10,000 nt of DNA, from positions 1 to 10,000 of the forward strand of contig JAIWOH010000055.1 in NCBI GenBank assembly GCA_020216985.1. The letters run 5' to 3'. The position numbers were made by a program, and so were the translations under genes. Numbering within the stretch: the first letter of the stretch is position 1; each line of letters begins with the position of its first letter. The notes beneath the pieces were generated by a model. That model was given only the letters and a program-made list of their open reading frames with translations, had not been told where the DNA came from and made no database searches. Below are positions 1-9,110 of the stretch, one piece after another. Source of the DNA: Nitrospira sp. GTDB taxonomy: Bacteria > Nitrospirota > Nitrospiria > Nitrospirales > Nitrospiraceae.

Positions 1-264
1 GCGGAGCGAGCGATTGAACTGCGGTATATCCAACCGGGGAAACCGGACCAGAATGCCTTCATCGAACGGTTCAATCGGATGTATCGTCCCGAAGTGCTGA
101 ATGCTTATGTGTTCGAGTCGTTGGAGTAGGTCCGGGAGATCAGCGAAGACTGGTTGCAGAGTTACAATGAAGAACGGCCCCATGACGCGTTGGCGGGCCT
201 GCCGCCCGCCATGTATCGGGCCCGACTTGAAGCCAGAAGTTCTCCTTTGGAAGTGTCTCCTTGA
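1..264 (+). pseudogene. IS3-family transposase (OrfB), C-terminal fragment with in-frame stop
   Basis: Frame 1 reads from the window edge to TGA at 262-264. It contains [18 protein letters not shown] and then YNEERPHDALAGLPP, the hallmark end of the IS3-family DDE integrase core. The Glu in FIERFN is the expected third catalytic acidic residue. The earlier Asp residues lie outside the window. A TAG at 127-129 interrupts the frame in the stretch VFESLE-stop-VREIS, where family members usually have Gln (CAG), so one C-to-T change explains it. The last 45 codons remain readable after this stop. The copy is therefore probably inactive, or read through at low level. Family assignment is strong from these motifs; the IS subgroup cannot be decided from this fragment. 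Confidence 0.85.
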
Positions 265-284
265 CGGGGGAGCTTACGCTATCA
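262..284. mobile_element. Probable right end of the IS3-type element and junction with the helicase gene
   Basis: The transposase stop (262-264) is followed by a short G-rich stretch ending around 276. On the minus strand the methylase/helicase protein is recognisable up to NTLIA (codon at 279-277) and then meets TAA at 276-274. Relatives continue there with a His and the Walker A motif. The protein match ends exactly where the IS end is expected, so I place the insertion boundary near 276/277. The terminal inverted repeat cannot be checked because the left end of the element is outside the window, and no target duplication can be seen. Confidence 0.6.
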
Positions 285-3200
285 GAGTATTCCCATTGAT
301 CAAGGCACGCCACACAACGTTTTTCTGATGTTGGCGTAAAGTAATCTCCGGATTGGATCCTTGAAGTTCCAAGTGACTTCCGTCAAAGGTCGGCTTACGA
401 AAATTCCGGCGTGTTTCGTTGTACAGCTGTGTCAATTCGCTTTTTCTGGTCTCATCGCTCCAAAGCCATTCAACGAATTTCTCCTGCAACCGGGCTTGCT
501 TCTCTCGTGCAGCAATGGTCTTCTGTTTATCCATGATCCGACTTCCATCTGTGGTCTTCGTGTATATGGTTGGAAGTCGCGAATCCATTGCGTCGATGAT
601 TAAATCGATCGCAGGATAGTCTGGCGTGCCATAGACATTGAGATTCTTTGCGTTTCGGTCGAGTCCGGCTTGTTTCTGAATAACAATGTCATAGGCGCCG
701 ACTGTGGCATTGTATGATACATTTACATAATAGAGCCGGATGTCGAATATCTCAGAGATAAATTTCGCATACGTGGTCGTTGGAATCCAGTCCACACCAA
801 GCTTGACCGCGATTTGATCATGGGGAATATCCGGCGGAATGACTGCCTGCAATGCCTCTACATTCCGTTTGAACAACGGATCGATTTCCGCAGCGCTTTT
901 GGCCAATTTCAGCTTCATCCGCACATCCCCTGACAGGTATTTCTCTGCTACAACCCATTCACCTGACGGGTCTTGAAAGACAAGTCCGTACAACTCTGTT
1001 TTCAGCTCATCCTGTGAGCGCCCAGTCACTTGTTCAATGCGTGCCCAGTCGATAGTGCCTCGCTCATTTAGGACGAACAGGAGCGCGTCCTTGGCCGTTT
1101 CTATTTTGGGGGTTCCCCGTCTAGGCTTGACAACACGCTCTGTGAAGATGTCGGCTTTTTGTGCGGTATTACTTTTGGGGTCATAGCGTTTTTCAAGGGC
1201 CTGGACATTGGCATATTCAGGATCCCCTCGCAGTATTGATTTATTCGCGCGACTGTTGACCGGGCCGAATTTCTTGACAAACTGATCGTACCGCTTGTTC
1301 AGCTCTCGTATCGCTGCTGCAACATCATTGTCTGGTGCATTTTCCAGCTGCGTATGGAGAACTTCACGAATCTGGTTGCGTAAACCGATCAGGCCTTTAG
1401 CCCGTTCAAGATTGGATTGCGAAATATCTGGTACAGGGACAAGCTCGCCACCATGTTTCACATGCAGCCCTGAATCACGCAGAACATACGAGCCTTCCAA
1501 AATATCGTTTTCCGCAGGCAATGCGTCCAGCAATCCTTGTGTAGTAACACTGGTCGGCTTCAGCCTTGGCCGAAGGACCCCGGCCGGCATCCGGCGGAAT
1601 GCGTCATCGATCGCGGGCCCCATGTCGCGTCCATCCGGCTCGACAGTCAATTCGTTCGCTCGATACATCGAGCCGCTCATCGACAGGCGGCCAAGGACCT
1701 GCTCGGGATGGCGTAAATAGTATTCGTTGATGCTGACCGGTTTATTATCGATCTGCGTTGAGGTGGATGATTCCCAGGTTTCACCGCTCGCAGGGATTCC
1801 TTCCTCGCGGCGCTGAAGCACGATGATGTCGGTGACCACTTCCGTATTGGCAATCTCTTTGAATTGTGTCCGCGGTAGGCGAATGGCGCCAATAAGATTG
1901 GCATGATTCGCTAAGTACGCTCGCACCTTCGTGTCCTGCTTGTCCATGGTGTACCGCGAGGTGATGAAAACAACCAGCCCACCAGGCCGAACTTGCGTCA
2001 ACGCTTTCGCGAAGAAGTAATCGTGCAAGGACATATTCATGCGGCTTAATTCTTTGTTGTGCGGATCAAACACGCGCACATCGGCAAACGGCACATTCCC
2101 GACAGCAACATCGAAGAACGAGTCTGGGATCACGACTTTCTGATATTCGCTGTTTTGCACAGATGCATGCGGGTACAGTAATTTCGCAATGCGTGCGCTA
2201 AGACTGTCTTTTTCAATGGCCACACGTTGCGAACGGTTGGTAATTGCCGGAGGCATCGCACCAAGAAAATGGCCGATACCGGCTGCAGGTTCTAATAGGC
2301 GGCCACCAGTAAATCCAAGATGTTCGAGTCCTCGATAGATGGCATGAATGGTTTTGGGATCAGTATAGTGTGCGTTCGGCGTTGAGGCTCGTGCATCATT
2401 GTATTCCTGCTCCGTCAATAGCTTTCGCAAGATTTCTCTTTCTTTCGACCACAATCGATCATACACTTGCGGCAAACCACCCCATCCGGTATAACGAGCT
2501 AGGATTTTTTGTTCCTCTGGCGTTGCCAACCGACCTTCGTGTTCAATCGTTTTGAGCAGTTTAATGGCCTCGACGTTGGCAGAGAATTTCGCTTTCTGTC
2601 CGCTTGGAATTTCAAAGTCTTCTCCAAGCACAAAGTCTTGTCCGCGAAGCAGATGGTCCTCAGCGATACTTTCTACCGTCTCCTCTCCTCTCCCAGTATC
2701 GGCATGTCCTCCTCTGTCGGCGGATAAATCAGATCCCGTATCATCTCCATCGCTTCGTGCGGCGCCAACCCTTGGTGTTCGAGGGTGGTTAGCGTCTCGT
2801 CCGCCTGTTGTTGCAGGTCTCGTACGTGTTTCTCTAGAAGTCCCTGGCTCTTGAGATACTGGTACATCTTGGGCCTGTTCCTCTGAAGATGGTCGTGTAT
2901 CTTCCATCCGAGTGCGTTGAAGCTCATTTGGCACCTCCTGTGGTGATGGAGGTTCCAGATCGGCTACCCGATTTTTGAGTTCCTGGACCTCATCAGCCAA
3001 CGCTTGTAGCTGTGACAATTCGGCAGGTGGCTCTAAGGCCGGTGGCGGCGGCGCTGGAGCCGCTTCCTCAGTCAATGGAACCGGCTTGGCAGGCCTCTCA
3101 GCAGGCGGCTGCTGTTCTTCCCTTCCTCGAACCTCATGCGGCGGCGCCTCTAGTTGCGGAATAGTCGTGACCGGCGTAGATGGTTCGGCTGGACGAGGCG

Positions 3201-5709
3201 GTTGCGCAGGCGGCTGATTCGGAAGCGGTTGTTCGGCTTGTGTCGGTCTGGTATAGGGAATCGGTCGTTTCTGGATTGCTGCTTGCGTTTCGCTTCTGGT
3301 TTCCGGCAGTGTTATGCCCGTCAATCGTTCAAAGATGTCTCGCGAAGTCTTGTTTGGCAGATCGAGGACGTCGTTATAGCCACGGCCAAGCAAGACGTCC
3401 AAAAGATTTCTGGCATTCAGTAAGCGAATCGATTCACTGAATTCTTCAGGCGGATATAAATCGGCGATTTCTTGGATGCGCTGGCCATAGTCCGATACCA
3501 ATCGACCGGATTGCAAATATTCACGCACTGCATAAGGATCGAAATATGGCTGTTGCTCATGCTCAGGAATGTCCGGTGCATATTGGGGATCGCCAGGTTT
3601 GGGCCATGAATAAAATCGAGGATCTTTTTCGTATTTCGCGAGCTCACGATTCCGTTCCGACATAAAGGACGAATCTGGCTCACTGAGTATCGCCATTTCT
3701 TCGTCCGTTAGGTCCTTGACCGGCTTATCAAGGGGAATGCCTTTATACGTTTCCCTAGAAAGCGGGGGTGGCGCCTGCGTTGCCGGCTGAACAATCTCTG
3801 GCGTAACTGCCTCTGTCCGTTCGGCCTCCACGTCTTCGGCAAGCGATGACATGGCTAATTGCGGAGGCGCAGGAATTCCTGGTGCTTCCACCAGGCCAGG
3901 AGGAAGTTCGCGTGACGGCTCGGATAAGGCTTCATCTTCAATGACTTCTTCCCTCACTTGCGTGATAGGTGGGGGCGAAGTCGGCGGTGACAACGCTGGA
4001 GGCTCCACTGTCATCACTGGAGCAGGCTCAGCCAATATCTGAGGCTGGGTTGGAGGTTCTTGGACGGGAATCGGTTCCGGCTCAATTGGCGCAACAAGCG
4101 GGCCTGCTCGCTCTTCAGCTGGCTGTTCGATTATCGGCGCAGACGGTGGAATAGGTGTTGGTTCAATTGGCGCTGGCAATGCCAGCTGTGGACGTGGCGG
4201 CAGAGGTTCCGCTGCGGTCGGCTCAATCCGACGCTTGTATAAACGCGGCGGGCCCGTCTGAATATCGAACGCCGAGGGGAATTGCTCCGCCATTTTCTGG
4301 ATTTCTCGATTGATCCGGTCCCCGATTTTGGGAGGCCGTTCCTTGATCGGCGGAGGTACGGGGCCAAGATCGGGGGGAAGCGGCGATGGCGGAGACACTG
4401 CCGCCTCCCTTGACTCTTTCGCCTTCTGCTCGCGCTCCCTATCTTCTTCAGGGATGGCCACTTTTGCTGGGCCTGTGGCGATGCTTTTTGCTGCCACCAT
4501 GGTTTCGGGAGCGCTGAGTAATCCAGATGCAACGACGGTTTCCGGCAACCCTTCCGCAACATCGCGAGTCGGCTGATATGTCGATTTGGCGAGGATGTTC
4601 TGTGTCAATTGGTCGGAGACATCGACTCCGATTGCGCGCATGGCTTGCATATAGTTGCGTTTCAGCGACTGCCAAAGCTGCTGGCGTCGCTCCCATGCGC
4701 GCTGCACCATGGGATCGTGCGCAATCCGTGCATTGAGGGCGTCAAGGTCCGCCACCACGGTGGCCGGTGTGTAGCCAAACGGCAATGGCCGTCCGCTATC
4801 GGCTTCCTGTTTGAGATCGGCCAACAGCGCCTTCCATTCCAGGAGATCGTATTGTTCGGGAGACAATGGGGAAAGAAGCTCCGTGATTTCCCGCAGAACA
4901 TGATCGGCTGCGATTCCCTTGGCTTTTTGGAGACGCAACAAATCCGTGCGAAGCGGAGAGAATTGCGGAGTATCCGGCAAGTGCTCGAACTCTCGCGTCG
5001 CCAAGCGCCATATCCGTCCAATAAATTCCTGCAGCCTCTGCTTGAGGGGTTCCGGGCGAATCCCGCGCTTGGCGGCCTTGACACGCCGATCGACTTCGGG
5101 ATCGGAGGATGAAAACAATCCGTCTGATCGTCTCCCGCTCGGCAGGCCTTCCGGTTCAGACTCTAGCTCGGCTCGATCTGCGGCGGCACGTTCCGCTCGG
5201 TAGAGTCGGGCTTCGGCAAGATAGGCGGGTGGGGGATCTCGCTGTTGGAATCCCGGCTCGGCAGTGTCGGCGCGACGGCCTCGAACGGTGGAGGCGTCTT
5301 CCATTGTGGGAGTCTCTGCTCGATTGCTGCCTGGTACAAGATCCGGGGGTCCAAGCCGTCCGCCTGTGCCTTCTCCAGCCACATCCGGACGGTCTCCGGC
5401 TCCACGGTCTGCTGCATACATGCGGCTAGTTTCGAGAGGTACGCTCGTTCCTTCTCGCCAAAACGGCGTGAGCGCGTCGAGGTCTCTGACAACGATGGAA
5501 TAGACATGTTCCGCTCCTTGCGTCAGTGCGCGTCTAAGCCCGTTGAGGATCGTCTTGAACAATTCCGGGCCGATCGCATTATAATTCGCCGACAGCTGGC
5601 GTTCAAAGGGAACGCTCTGTTCGTCAGGGAAGTTTGTGCTCCTGGAAGTAATCGTACAGTTGCCGGTACGTGACGCCCGGTTCGACCAGAGCATAACAGA
5701 GGTCGCCAT
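274..5709 (-). CDS. Giant polyvalent-type protein: N6-methylase domain plus truncated SNF2 helicase
   Basis: This minus-strand frame stays open for 1,811 codons. About 4470-5160 encodes a helical region. Proline-rich linkers lie at about 3765-4440 and 3020-3290, with a compact conserved-looking segment between them. A short coiled coil lies near 2955-3030. An adenine-methylase-like domain occupies about 1550-2680, and a C-terminal region leads to LRQHQKNVVWRALINGNTLIA-like sequence at 340-277, which precedes Walker A in SNF2 helicases. This architecture is known from polyvalent proteins of phages and conjugative elements (compare DarB of phage P1), thought to protect incoming DNA in the recipient. 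The helicase is cut off by the IS end. The start is uncertain: the first 29 codons overlap the pchF fragment out of frame and are spurious. Candidate starts are ATG 5304, or ATG 5507 if one base is missing near 5165. It may be several genes in one phase. Confidence 0.75.
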   Translation of the reverse strand: MATSVMLWSNRASRTGNCTITSRSTNFPDEQSVPFERQLSANYNAIGPELFKTILNGLRRALTQGAEHVYSIVVRDLDALTPFWREGTSVPLETSRMYAADRGAGDRPDVAGEGTGGRLGPPDLVPGSNRAETPTMEDASTVRGRRADTAEPGFQQRDPPPAYLAEARLYRAERAAADRAELESEPEGLPSGRRSDGLFSSSDPEVDRRVKAAKRGIRPEPLKQRLQEFIGRIWRLATREFEHLPDTPQFSPLRTDLLRLQKAKGIAADHVLREITELLSPLSPEQYDLLEWKALLADLKQEADSGRPLPFGYTPATVVADLDALNARIAHDPMVQRAWERRQQLWQSLKRNYMQAMRAIGVDVSDQLTQNILAKSTYQPTRDVAEGLPETVVASGLLSAPETMVAAKSIATGPAKVAIPEEDREREQKAKESREAAVSPPSPLPPDLGPVPPPIKERPPKIGDRINREIQKMAEQFPSAFDIQTGPPRLYKRRIEPTAAEPLPPRPQLALPAPIEPTPIPPSAPIIEQPAEERAGPLVAPIEPEPIPVQEPPTQPQILAEPAPVMTVEPPALSPPTSPPPITQVREEVIEDEALSEPSRELPPGLVEAPGIPAPPQLAMSSLAEDVEAERTEAVTPEIVQPATQAPPPLSRETYKGIPLDKPVKDLTDEEMAILSEPDSSFMSERNRELAKYEKDPRFYSWPKPGDPQYAPDIPEHEQQPYFDPYAVREYLQSGRLVSDYGQRIQEIADLYPPEEFSESIRLLNARNLLDVLLGRGYNDVLDLPNKTSRDIFERLTGITLPETRSETQAAIQKRPIPYTRPTQAEQPLPNQPPAQPPRPAEPSTPVTTIPQLEAPPHEVRGREEQQPPAERPAKPVPLTEEAAPAPPPPALEPPAELSQLQALADEVQELKNRVADLEPPSPQEVPNELQRTRMEDTRPSSEEQAQDVPVSQEPGTSRETRTRPATTGGRDANHPRTPRVGAARSDGDDTGSDLSADRGGHADTGRGEETVESIAEDHLLRGQDFVLGEDFEIPSGQKAKFSANVEAIKLLKTIEHEGRLATPEEQKILARYTGWGGLPQVYDRLWSKEREILRKLLTEQEYNDARASTPNAHYTDPKTIHAIYRGLEHLGFTGGRLLEPAAGIGHFLGAMPPAITNRSQRVAIEKDSLSARIAKLLYPHASVQNSEYQKVVIPDSFFDVAVGNVPFADVRVFDPHNKELSRMNMSLHDYFFAKALTQVRPGGLVVFITSRYTMDKQDTKVRAYLANHANLIGAIRLPRTQFKEIANTEVVTDIIVLQRREEGIPASGETWESSTSTQIDNKPVSINEYYLRHPEQVLGRLSMSGSMYRANELTVEPDGRDMGPAIDDAFRRMPAGVLRPRLKPTSVTTQGLLDALPAENDILEGSYVLRDSGLHVKHGGELVPVPDISQSNLERAKGLIGLRNQIREVLHTQLENAPDNDVAAAIRELNKRYDQFVKKFGPVNSRANKSILRGDPEYANVQALEKRYDPKSNTAQKADIFTERVVKPRRGTPKIETAKDALLFVLNERGTIDWARIEQVTGRSQDELKTELYGLVFQDPSGEWVVAEKYLSGDVRMKLKLAKSAAEIDPLFKRNVEALQAVIPPDIPHDQIAVKLGVDWIPTTTYAKFISEIFDIRLYYVNVSYNATVGAYDIVIQKQAGLDRNAKNLNVYGTPDYPAIDLIIDAMDSRLPTIYTKTTDGSRIMDKQKTIAAREKQARLQEKFVEWLWSDETRKSELTQLYNETRRNFRKPTFDGSHLELQGSNPEITLRQHQKNVVWRALINGNTLIA
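1550..2680 (-). other. N6-adenine methyltransferase-like domain within the giant ORF
   Basis: The order is a helical lead (EEQKILARYTGWGG near 2480-2520), AHYTDP near 2365-2380, the SAM-binding motif I LLEPAAGIGHFLG at about 2262-2303, the motif IV position GNVPFADV at about 2080-2106, then LHDYFFAKAL and VRPGGLVVFITSRYTMDKQ. These match the methylase module of large helicase-fusion proteins of plasmids, ICEs and phages. The catalytic tetrapeptide is NVPF rather than the canonical (N/D)PP(Y/F), a form I associate with this fused family. Whether it methylates DNA is not shown by the sequence. The domain appears intact. Confidence 0.8.
2673..2927 (-). CDS. Small mobile-element protein nested in the giant frame (84 aa)
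   Basis: ATG at 2927 follows a strong ribosome binding site (AGGAGG, six bases before the start). The frame encodes a coherent helical protein with RPKMYQYLKSQGLLEKH, a central heptad-rich helix, HEAMEMIRDLIYPP and EEDMPILGEE. I recognise this layout (PxMYxxLxxxGxL, then a xEAxEMxR helix and an acidic end) as a small protein of unknown function often found beside large methylase/helicase genes of mobile elements. Codon third positions are GC-rich, as for a real gene. In the same stretch the giant frame gives low-complexity Arg/Asp/Gly/Thr sequence that looks like linker or shadow. A TGA in the third phase at 2926-2924 overlaps the start as ATGA, which would suit the end of an upstream gene. 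The stop is TAG at 2675-2673. Confidence 0.7.
   Translation of the reverse strand: MSFNALGWKIHDHLQRNRPKMYQYLKSQGLLEKHVRDLQQQADETLTTLEHQGLAPHEAMEMIRDLIYPPTEEDMPILGEERRR
3020..4440 (-). other. Proline-rich, probably disordered linkers flanking a compact segment
   Basis: The giant frame encodes dense Pro/Glu/Ala/Gln sequence at about 3765-4440 (PPPIKERPPK, APIEPTPIPPSAP, EPEPIPVQEPPTQP) and again at about 3020-3290 (QPPAQPPRPAEP, APAPPPPALEPP). Between them, at about 3295-3765, lies a segment of normal composition with Trp, Tyr and Phe (DPRFYSWPKPGDPQYAPDIP), likely a small folded region of unknown function. Such linkers are typical of multi-domain polyvalent proteins. Internal Pro-rich near-repeats are degenerate; no exact tandem array is visible. 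Confidence 0.65.
5163..5507 (-). CDS. Unknown 114-aa protein, or true N-terminus of the giant protein
   Basis: ATG at 5507 has an excellent ribosome binding site, AAGGAG at 5519-5514, six bases upstream. The product starts MSIPSLSETSTRS, continues with amphipathic helices (GEKERAYLSKLAACMQQT, VRMWLEKAQADG, RILYQAAIEQRLPQW) and ends in a proline-rich tail before TAG at 5165-5163. Third codon positions are strongly G/C. The overlapping giant frame here is Gly/Arg-rich and looks like a shadow. If a single base is missing near 5165, this frame continues smoothly into the giant frame, giving a 1,744-residue protein that starts here. Alternatively it is an independent small gene overlapping the next one. 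I do not recognise a family. Confidence 0.6.
   Translation of the reverse strand: MSIPSLSETSTRSRRFGEKERAYLSKLAACMQQTVEPETVRMWLEKAQADGLDPRILYQAAIEQRLPQWKTPPPFEAVAPTLPSRDSNSEIPHPPILPKPDSTERNVPPQIEPS
5508..5625 (-). other. Possible C-terminal remnant of a further upstream mobile-element gene
   Basis: Between the pchF breakpoint and the start of the 114-aa ORF, the phase of the giant frame reads as plausible protein: PFERQLSANYNAIGPELF, then KTILNGLRRALTQGAEHV. The other two phases contain stops or look like shadow sequence. No start precedes it on the mobile side of the junction, so it is probably the interior or end of a gene whose beginning was lost. No stop separates it from the giant frame. 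Function unknown. Confidence 0.35.
5618..5632. other. Breakpoint between pchF and mobile-element DNA
   Basis: Reading pchF on the minus strand, family-like sequence continues to YRQLYDYFQEHKLP and then stops at TGA (5626-5624). Homologues go on with several hundred more residues. The sequence beyond has no flavoprotein character and belongs to the giant-ORF block. I see no transposase or inverted repeat at this edge. It could be a recombination scar, the far end of a larger insertion, or an assembly join. Confidence 0.6.
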
Positions 5710-6063
5710 CCACCTCCAAAATACGGTTCATGCGATGCAGATCAAGCACGACTTGCCGCGCTCGGCCGGTGCGGCCGAGCCGTACCCGAGATTCTTGCCG
5801 GTCGAGATCGTCCAGAGCGGCACCTTGTGCTTGTTGCAAATTTTCAAGATGCCTTGAATCTGCTCCACGGTCGTCGCCATGATCGCGGCGGAGGGCGTGT
5901 GATTCGCCTCCGGCACGGGCATCATGACCTTGATATAGGGCGCAAGCTGTTCGGCGCTCACGAGTACATTGGGCTCGCTCAAGACACGGCGAAACTCCTT
6001 CACGGCGGCGTCAAACGCTTTTTCGGACACGCCCTTCGGCAGGGCGATGTATTTGCTGGCCAT
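5624..6063 (-). pseudogene. pchF: p-Cresol methylhydroxylase flavoprotein subunit, truncated and frameshifted
   Basis: The start at 6063 is set by GGGAGG six bases upstream. The first frame encodes the FAD-binding N-terminal domain of the vanillyl-alcohol oxidase / 4-cresol dehydrogenase family, including the FAD pyrophosphate loop STGKNLGYGSAAP at residues 87-99. Near 5753-5760 the homology moves to another phase (QVVLDLHRMNRILEVDG, CYALVEPGVTYRQLYDY), consistent with one missing C in GGCCAA. It ends after HKLP, giving about 146 of roughly 520 residues, without the substrate domain or the tyrosine that binds FAD covalently. The product cannot be an active enzyme. PCMH normally oxidises p-cresol to p-hydroxybenzaldehyde via the alcohol in the periplasm, with a cytochrome c partner. 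It lies 17 bases downstream of the pchX-like gene. Confidence 0.85.
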
Positions 6064-6080: not shown

Positions 6081-6958
6081 CTAGATATCCATGACGAAGG
6101 AAGCAAACCTTTCCGCCGGTTGCATCCGACCACCATTGCGCGATTCATGCAAGAACGCCCGGGCGACGCAGGTTTCGCTGATAGCTTTCACGCCGATTGC
6201 CGAAGCCGTGACGGCGTACCCCACCGACTCCACCCACGTTCGCCCTTGCCACGCGACGGCGTCGCAACGGCAAGATTCCCGAGGAATGGCCGCCCATTCC
6301 TCCGTGATTTCCCAATCCAGCAGGCGGCATGCTTCTTGGAGTGAAAGCCCCGACGCATGCACATGTCCGCGCTGACACCGCCGACGCGGTAGGAGGAGAA
6401 TCTGGGGGCGGTCCAGCCGCTCACGGCATGTTCGTCAGGAGGCGCCTGGAGAAAAGTTTCCATAATCACGAACTCGTCCTCGGCTTGACGAAGCTGCGAC
6501 GCCAGGAATCCCCCCATGCCGTAGGCCGGCCCCGTCGTCACCCAGTCATGCCGCAACCGGCAAGCGTGGCCCGTCGAACAGACATGCGTGTCCATCGACA
6601 ACAGCCGGGCCCCTGCAGTCCGTGCCAGTTCCAGAAACACCACTGCGGCAGCATCGTCCATCACGGCGATCATCCGCGCCCCTCGGGTCTGATCCAACAG
6701 AGTGACCATCCGGTCCATCTCCGTCAGCAGACCGCAGTGCAGCGCGACGGTCTTTAAGCCGTCGAATCCCTTGCCGTCGCAGGCCGCCCGTGCGCCGTTC
6801 GCGAAACCCGCGTCGGCATCGGTGCCACCGAGCAGCAACACGCACCGGTCGGGCCGGCGCGGAGGCGGGGCCACGAACGCCCATGCCGGAACCCCCAGAG
6901 CCAGGAGAGTCCCGCTCGCCAACATCCCCTTCATCAAGCTGCGGCGATCAATCTCCAT
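6081..6958 (-). pseudogene. pchX: Tat-exported protein in the pchX position, single-base frameshift
   Basis: ATG at 6958 follows AAGGAGG nine bases upstream; that site overlaps the stop region of pchC, so the genes are coupled. The N-terminus (MEIDRRSLMKG, a hydrophobic stretch, then AWA near residue 27) is a twin-arginine signal peptide. The frame is good to GGVSADM and then loses sense. Sense resumes in another phase from VHASGLSLQEACRLLDWE to FASFVMDI and TAG at 6081. One missing base near 6362-6368 joins them into 292 residues. The uncorrected frame ends at 6188 with an unrelated Arg/Gly-rich tail. The gene sits between pchC- and pchF-like genes, the place of pchX in the Pseudomonas putida pchACXF clusters. 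The gene name is by position; I have not compared sequences. Function unknown, perhaps maturation of the exported flavoprotein. Confidence 0.7.
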
Positions 6959-8663: not shown

Positions 8664-9110
8664 TTACAAGTGTAATGATTTGATCGGCGACAGGACCGCC
8701 GCCGGATTGTCTTTCCACAACGATTCGTCCGCGTCCACGTAGAGTTCAATTTCATTTCCGTCGGGATCACGAAGATAAAGGCTCTGGCTGACCGTATGGT
8801 CGCTCATTCCATCGATGGGTATCCCGGCCGCCTCAAGCTCGTTCTTGGCCGCGCGCAACTCAGCCAGACTGTCGCCGACCTTGATGCCGATATGGTACAG
8901 ACCGCGGCGGCGGCCGGCCGGCGGGCCCGGCGCATCACCGACCTGGATCAGCAGCAATTCATGGTGCGTGCGCCCGGACGTGAGCGCCGCCGCCAGGCCA
9001 TTGAAGATCCGGCCCACTTCCTTGAAGCCCAGCAGATCACGATAAAAGGCCAACGACCGTTCGAGATCTTTTACATAGAACACGACATGACCGAGATAGT
9101 GCGCTTTCAT
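8664..9110 (-). CDS. VOC-superfamily (glyoxalase/extradiol dioxygenase fold) metalloenzyme
   Basis: This intact 148-residue single-module VOC protein has two beta-alpha-beta-beta-beta units. The first is YLGHVVFYVKDLERSLAFYR, DLLGF. The second includes GLYHIGIKVGDSLAEL and the end motif LRDPDGNEIELYVD. Predicted metal ligands are H8, H73 and E122, placed as in extradiol dioxygenases and glyoxalases. The SLYLRDPDGNEIELY end resembles CatE-like catechol 2,3-dioxygenase family proteins, but the single-domain length leaves the reaction open: ring cleavage, glutathione-linked isomerisation or resistance are all possible. It lies 87 bases downstream of the dsbA-like gene and directly upstream of the small ORFs. 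Its presence with p-cresol genes is suggestive of aromatic catabolism but not proof. Confidence 0.8.
   Translation of the reverse strand: MKAHYLGHVVFYVKDLERSLAFYRDLLGFKEVGRIFNGLAAALTSGRTHHELLLIQVGDAPGPPAGRRRGLYHIGIKVGDSLAELRAAKNELEAAGIPIDGMSDHTVSQSLYLRDPDGNEIELYVDADESLWKDNPAAVLSPIKSLHL

Follow-up and report, generated by a model that had tools for sequence, protein, structure and literature searches.

The phage lysis genes Rz and Rz1 form a nested out-of-frame pair, in which a short gene with a start of its own lies inside another gene. The arrangement that we describe here resembles them in that a short gene is found within another one, in a different frame and with its own start, and it differs in that Rz and Rz1 are both small lysis proteins, whereas here the outer gene is a giant of the antirestriction type and the overlap extends to plasmids. 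The inner gene is close to TnpV (PF14198), a small protein whose profile it matches and whose genes lie beside or inside DarB-type genes in plasmids; it departs from TnpV in that the copy studied here scores below the curated cut-off of the family, and we found no description of a TnpV nested in DarB. The outer gene belongs to the DarB-like polyvalent proteins, giant proteins with methylase and SNF2 helicase regions that are encoded by phages and conjugative elements (Iyer et al. 2017, PMC5512222). The DarB protein of phage P1 forms part of the virion and guards DNA against restriction (PMC5512222), and gp69 of phage JC1 was detected in the virion by mass spectrometry (PMC9144972). The passages on DarB-like proteins in Iyer et al. 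(PMC5512222) describe no out-of-frame gene within them and make no mention of TnpV or of an overlap, and a search of the open-access literature for TnpV together with DarB returned nothing. The original prediction for this locus had supposed that dual coding would be new for the DarB-like family; no earlier report was found among the papers listed by searches of the open-access literature, which leaves out most subscription journals.

The window, by which we mean the whole stretch of 10,000 nucleotides of Nitrospira DNA that was analyzed, carries on its minus strand a giant open frame (274..5709, 1811 aa) that represents part of a DarB-like polyvalent gene, carried by a phage-like element within a Nitrospira genome. 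Its residues 908–1811 match phrog_10089 (DarB-like antirestriction, E 4.6e-251), and the frame aligns at 52% identity over 898 positions with a 4072-aa protein of the genome G056 (contig C222); the same giant-protein match was found in one IMG/VR viral contig and in one Nitrospira MAG contig, both of 40,118 bp. The adenine methylase region of DarB-like proteins is present in the window, as seen from the phrog_10089 match and from a match to Eco57I (PF07669, E 4.6e-5) whose score of 24 bits lies just under the cut-off of 25.3. The SNF2 helicase region is absent from the window copy, truncated at 274, and the G056 relative carries it (PF00176). Matches to the DarB core occur in 7 of 79 genomes of the genus and are strong only in the own genome and in G056; used as a single sequence, the core found no relative among the genome contigs and one (L007) among the viral contigs. 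As a side observation, residues 194–370 of the giant frame (4600..5130, minus strand) form a domain 58% identical to residues 3057–3233 of the G056 giant protein, which stands before the methylase in the window and behind the helicase in G056 (the giant of L009), so that the order of the domains has been shuffled.

The giant gene is truncated at both ends, the gene proper running only from about 5625 to 274. On one side, a transposase fragment (rve_3; 1..261, plus strand), in two pieces around an in-frame stop, adjoins and truncates it; this fragment (window 1–274) cuts off the DarB gene near the start of the helicase. On the other side, the element meets, near 5625, a truncated FAD-binding gene (5625..6063, minus strand) that is read in two frames, positions 1–41 and 41–85 of the FAD_binding_4 profile being matched in different frames. 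The first 75–85 bases of the giant frame (5709 to about 5625–5633) fall within this FAD-binding gene and are probably open by chance, and the junction itself may be an integration scar or an assembly join. Further along, the frame at 6958–6188, with a weak TAT-signal match, and the overlapping frame at 6362–6081 may be one gene with a frame break (region 6081–6958).

Two small ORFs are nested in this giant frame on the same strand: ORF-A (5507–5163, 114 aa) and ORF-B (2927–2673, 84 aa). Both exist as first described, with the Shine–Dalgarno sequences AAGGAG (5514..5519, minus strand) and AGGAGG (2934..2939, minus strand), respectively, six bases before their ATGs, and with third positions that are indeed GC-rich (0.78 for ORF-A, 0.69 for ORF-B). 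No stop interrupts the giant frame within either ORF, and each ORF begins at the second base of a giant codon, which puts the two in one phase. Three readings had been offered for this layout, namely separate genes overprinted on the giant frame, several genes joined by chance openness, and one-base errors that hide real stops, with a preference for the errors. The first of these is supported, strongly for ORF-B and moderately for ORF-A, and the other two find no support for ORF-B. In our best explanation, ORF-B is very probably a real TnpV-like gene that has been engulfed by the giant DarB-like frame and would be initiated internally, and ORF-A would be a second such gene, with less evidence.

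ORF-B matches TnpV (PF14198) at E 1.7e-5, with 25.2 bits, below the curated cut-off of 27, and 31 of the 42 members of the ORF-B alignment (A4) match this profile at E 0.05 or better. Its homologues include five metagenomic proteins of 88–128 aa (58–85% identity) and a copy in G056 (51% identity) that sits at the corresponding position of the giant frame, shares the phase, and has a GGAGG of its own. One relative, P0002, has a C-terminal tail in common with the G056 copy, which is expected if P0002, known as protein only, also overlaps the start region of a DarB gene. NCBIfam gave no match for five proteins. A profile search of solved structures returned three designed proteins and three RNF31 chains, which were not used. 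With the single ORF-B sequence as query, a scan of viral contigs recovered no relative; alignments or relatives worked better as queries. Within the host's own group the gene is rare, with 4 carriers among 146 relatives and 4 among 395 genomes of the phylum, both counts including the own genome, and copies situated outside DarB genes, in G017 (beside a homologue of ORF-A) and in G025, are frame-broken.

Among phages, the overlap proved to be widespread. A tblastn search with the G056 copy matched 10 phage records, every match falling within the giant gene, and a search with the copy of phage PEp14 (E limit 0.1) matched 21 records of 12 phages. When 13 loci were checked singly (11 phages, the window, and G056), the phase of ORF-B was identical in all of them, and in all but PBC5, thus in 12, the giant frame reached upstream of ORF-B for 2.2 kb or more. 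A scan of viral contigs with 18 aligned proteins yielded 54 loci, partly the same phages, and the combined scan of 73 sources gave an ORF-B match in 68 and none in five control phages. All 66 ORF-B loci with a DarB match (some of them one phage twice) show the same phase and a giant frame open through ORF-B, and the check on homologues of the region 2600–3000 thus finds both the small ORF and the open giant frame conserved. The two loci with no DarB match are both among the 54 viral contigs: L070 stops shortly past ORF-B, its giant-phase frame still open at the contig edge, and in L059 this frame begins 22 nt ahead of ORF-B and terminates at 8704 with no DarB in it. A profile made from 43 ORF-B proteins matched three of the five controls more weakly, out of frame and at positions giving the same phase (USP_18, E 8.7e-5; JC1, 0.0025; BcepIL02, 0.014, this last below the inclusion threshold), and detected no ORF-B in phages 8P and Y7. 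No ORF-B was found in P1 darB or in Methylovorus at E below 0.05. A very weak match to the ORF-B profile (E 0.06), in the same phase, lies in the methylase gene of a Methylovorus plasmid (L118 5609–5917).

This recurrence bears directly on the initially favored reading, according to which base errors or frameshift mutations in the contig hide stops and three ordinary separate genes are present. It is true that frame breaks do occur in this contig, the FAD gene beside the element being read in two frames, and that PBC5 displays another frame arrangement upstream of ORF-B. However, overlap, phase, and open frame recur in 66 of 66 loci, including records titled complete genomes with one giant CDS, which refutes base errors for ORF-B and gives no support to chance joining; moreover, the giant-frame similarity between the window and G056 continues through ORF-B, partly owing to the conservation of ORF-B itself. 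We therefore give next to no credence to hidden stops. Another possibility is that ORF-B alone is coding and that the giant frame is open there by chance, between two same-frame genes on either side. Such an arrangement would fit the lower conservation of the giant-frame protein in the overlap (63% identity over 17 pairs, compared with 78% in its flanks and with 79% for ORF-B over 13 pairs), as well as the separate TnpV and DarB genes of Acaryochloris. Within the window alone, the openness of the giant frame is only suggestive, its chance probability over ORF-B being 0.21 by codon permutation, 0.073 with the own codon usage, and 0.003 with DarB codon usage (over ORF-A, 0.055, 0.023, and 0.002, respectively), and it is the comparative evidence that decides. 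In a non-redundant set of 38 loci below 90% identity, window included, drawn from 65 recounted loci after the weak L007 was dropped, the giant frame is open across ORF-B in all 38, always in phase with DarB, against a chance expectation of 3.2 (own codon usage) or 1.6 (DarB codon usage), and the third frame is open in none; as these loci share descent and are not independent trials, products of probabilities overstate the case. In the synonymous-constraint check, the silent sites of the giant frame are nearly frozen inside the overlap, with 71 differences at 1095 sites (6.5%) versus 6620 at 16620 (39.8%) in the flanks. The rate is lower inside the overlap in 17 of 17 pairs, these being the pairs that passed the filter (failing pairs uncounted), three of which come close to duplicating others. 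Between close phages the signal loses strength, a value as low as that of LASTA versus SopranoGao being reached in 16% of other windows and that of PEp14 versus Stean in 1.5%; between the window and G056, silent differences number 6/27 within the overlap as against 251/415 beyond it, and the 143 flank windows go no lower than 0.45. Silent change is also reduced in the ORF-B frame, to 270/990 or 27% (13 pairs), below the 40% of the flanks, by which the giant frame seems to exert a constraint as well, although codon make-up differs and the reduction is slight between the window and G056 (19/37 vs 251/415). Both frames of this nested out-of-frame overlap are conserved and constrained in relatives, and we consider it extremely improbable that the giant frame is open at ORF-B by chance alone.

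Ribosomal frameshifting from the giant frame could also reach ORF-B, which would then be an alternative C-terminus and not a separate protein. In this regard, PBC5 deserves attention, as no more than 268 nt of its giant frame are open ahead of ORF-B, into which an upstream frame of 2.2k aa runs instead; in addition, phrog_938, which is as long as orf33 of PBC5 (2185 aa), matches 37 of 42 ORF-B proteins, the location of the match near its end being seen for the ORF-B of the window only. (The frames of PBC5, a Sinorhizobium phage, lie at 2716–9309 of L045, and phrog_938 is labelled 'endolysin'.) Yet a Shine–Dalgarno sequence and a start are present in 38 of 38 loci: an SD-like word of four or more bases precedes every ORF-B start, picked by position and not by its SD, compared with 257 of the 3428 other same-phase ATGs in those giant frames, and the start codon is ATG in 35 loci and GTG in 3. 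Furthermore, 18 of the 38 loci show a stop in the ORF-B frame no more than 60 nt ahead of the start, and in six it lies 6 nt upstream; TnpV genes also exist outside DarB frames (L106, L111). Frameshifting thus appears very improbable to us, and an engulfed gene with a start of its own remains the preferred reading. At the level of sequence comparison, our results show a conserved ORF-B, start, phase, and open giant frame, together with a double constraint.

With regard to the origin of the overlap, of eight loci from plasmids or faecal phages, six (L107–L109 and L112–L114, but not L106 and L111) have TnpV itself nested in an open DarB frame, always in the same phase; a ninth locus, on plasmid L110, stands outside this count, its DarB gene beginning at the start of the record. 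In the five of the six nested genes that were scanned (L107–L109, L112, and L113), TnpV was matched over its full length, and the cut-off of 27 bits is passed by L106–L109, L112, L113, and the Acaryochloris locus L111. On plasmid pREC3 of Acaryochloris, the genes for TnpV and the DarB-type protein lie side by side as separate units that overlap by 8 bases. A TnpV-like gene next to or inside a DarB-type gene is what we see in phages and plasmids alike, an observation of this study and not a published definition of TnpV, and the link of ORF-B to the plasmids rests on the TnpV profile. The gene tables of Monoglobus and Cohnella (Bacillota) plasmids include TnpV but omit the DarB-type gene, the PLSDB gene table being incomplete. 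Within the overlap, ORF-B is the better conserved frame, and we infer that the TnpV-like gene probably came first and was later traversed by the growing giant frame; the frame-broken Nitrospira copies outside DarB (G017, G025) and P0002, whose tblastn search against plasmids gave no match, speak against a simple origin story. As for annotation, of 12 phages whose records were read at ORF-B, 10 have one giant CDS and no small gene over ORF-B, and the other two records are those of PBC5, with its upstream CDS running into ORF-B, and Itty13, with CDSs on the opposite strand. In Itty13 (L041 4905–16163), three large CDSs are annotated on the strand opposite the DarB frame.

ORF-A (5163..5507, minus strand) comprises a conserved core of about 80 aa and a tail of about 30 aa that is absent from five aligned relatives. 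Its relatives are few: Nitrospira and related genera have copies that lack a giant gene, and one viral contig, L119, carries a further copy; the single-sequence scan of viral contigs gave no relative, the alignment used as query found only the L119 contig again, and the L119 ORF-A had no match in phages. In L119, ORF-A has AGGAGG and an ATG and lies, in the same phase, within a 2870-aa frame that bears the polyvalent domains LPD1 and LPD38, the chance openness of that frame over ORF-A being 0.05–0.13. The stretch of the window's giant frame before and across ORF-A (5275..5610, minus strand) is similar to about residues 1840–1951 of this L119 protein (27% identity, E 1e-6 in a single comparison; tblastn E 1.4e-9), with the restrictions that the first residues of both alignments are unreliable, since they lie in the FAD part further upstream, that the similarity within ORF-A partly reflects ORF-A itself, and that its upstream part is short and weak. 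The idea that a single missing base near 5165 joins ORF-A to the giant frame is not favored: the five aligned relatives stop about 30 codons earlier, which makes ORF-A look unlike an N-terminal part of the giant protein. Similarity of the giant frame to another polyvalent protein also sets in, weakly, upstream of ORF-A. The proposed check on homologues of the ORF-A region gave a divided outcome, with same-phase nesting in one other contig (L119) but no nesting in G017, G354, and G387. Altogether, ORF-A is clearly nested in two of seven loci (the window and L119), and G041 and G037, in which giant-frame similarity is kept around ORF-A, look like remnants; two weaker G041 matches (one of them L129) and one in G034 (L126) stand outside this count. 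A giant frame open over ORF-A by chance had been envisaged, the frames around the G041 and G037 copies being open too, and this view was reversed by L119 and by the giant-frame similarity. An identical ORF-A protein (P0006) is listed for two contigs, of which the longer measures 109,629 bases. On evidence thinner than that for ORF-B, we regard it as moderately likely that ORF-A is a second engulfed gene.

In the engulfed-gene reading, the giant frame would pass through ORF-B in another phase, as a linker, and ribosomes would initiate internally at the Shine–Dalgarno sequence and ATG of ORF-B on the mRNA of the giant gene, its translation being predicted from sequence features. Given that DarB-type genes of both phages and plasmids have TnpV-like genes in front of them or within them, the product of ORF-B might be a small helper of the DarB-type methylase–helicase, for example a partner in folding, packaging, or activity, a role that we propose tentatively and hold to be less likely than not. 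More broadly, one may speculate that giant polyvalent genes grow by engulfing small neighbors, in one fixed phase, as linker code that is still separately translated, in which case ORF-A and ORF-B would be two products of the same process and the engulfed TnpV-like protein would be a dedicated DarB partner made in step with it; this wider scenario is tentative, and we consider it doubtful.

The ORF-B type of gene spans phages of Proteobacteria, a cyanobacterium, and Nitrospira, and reaches to plasmids of Bacillota, and in annotation it is either missed or masks the outer gene. If confirmed, the overlap would represent an existing gene engulfed by a longer frame, and not a gene newly born within an older one; it would also point to a possible partner of DarB-type antirestriction proteins.
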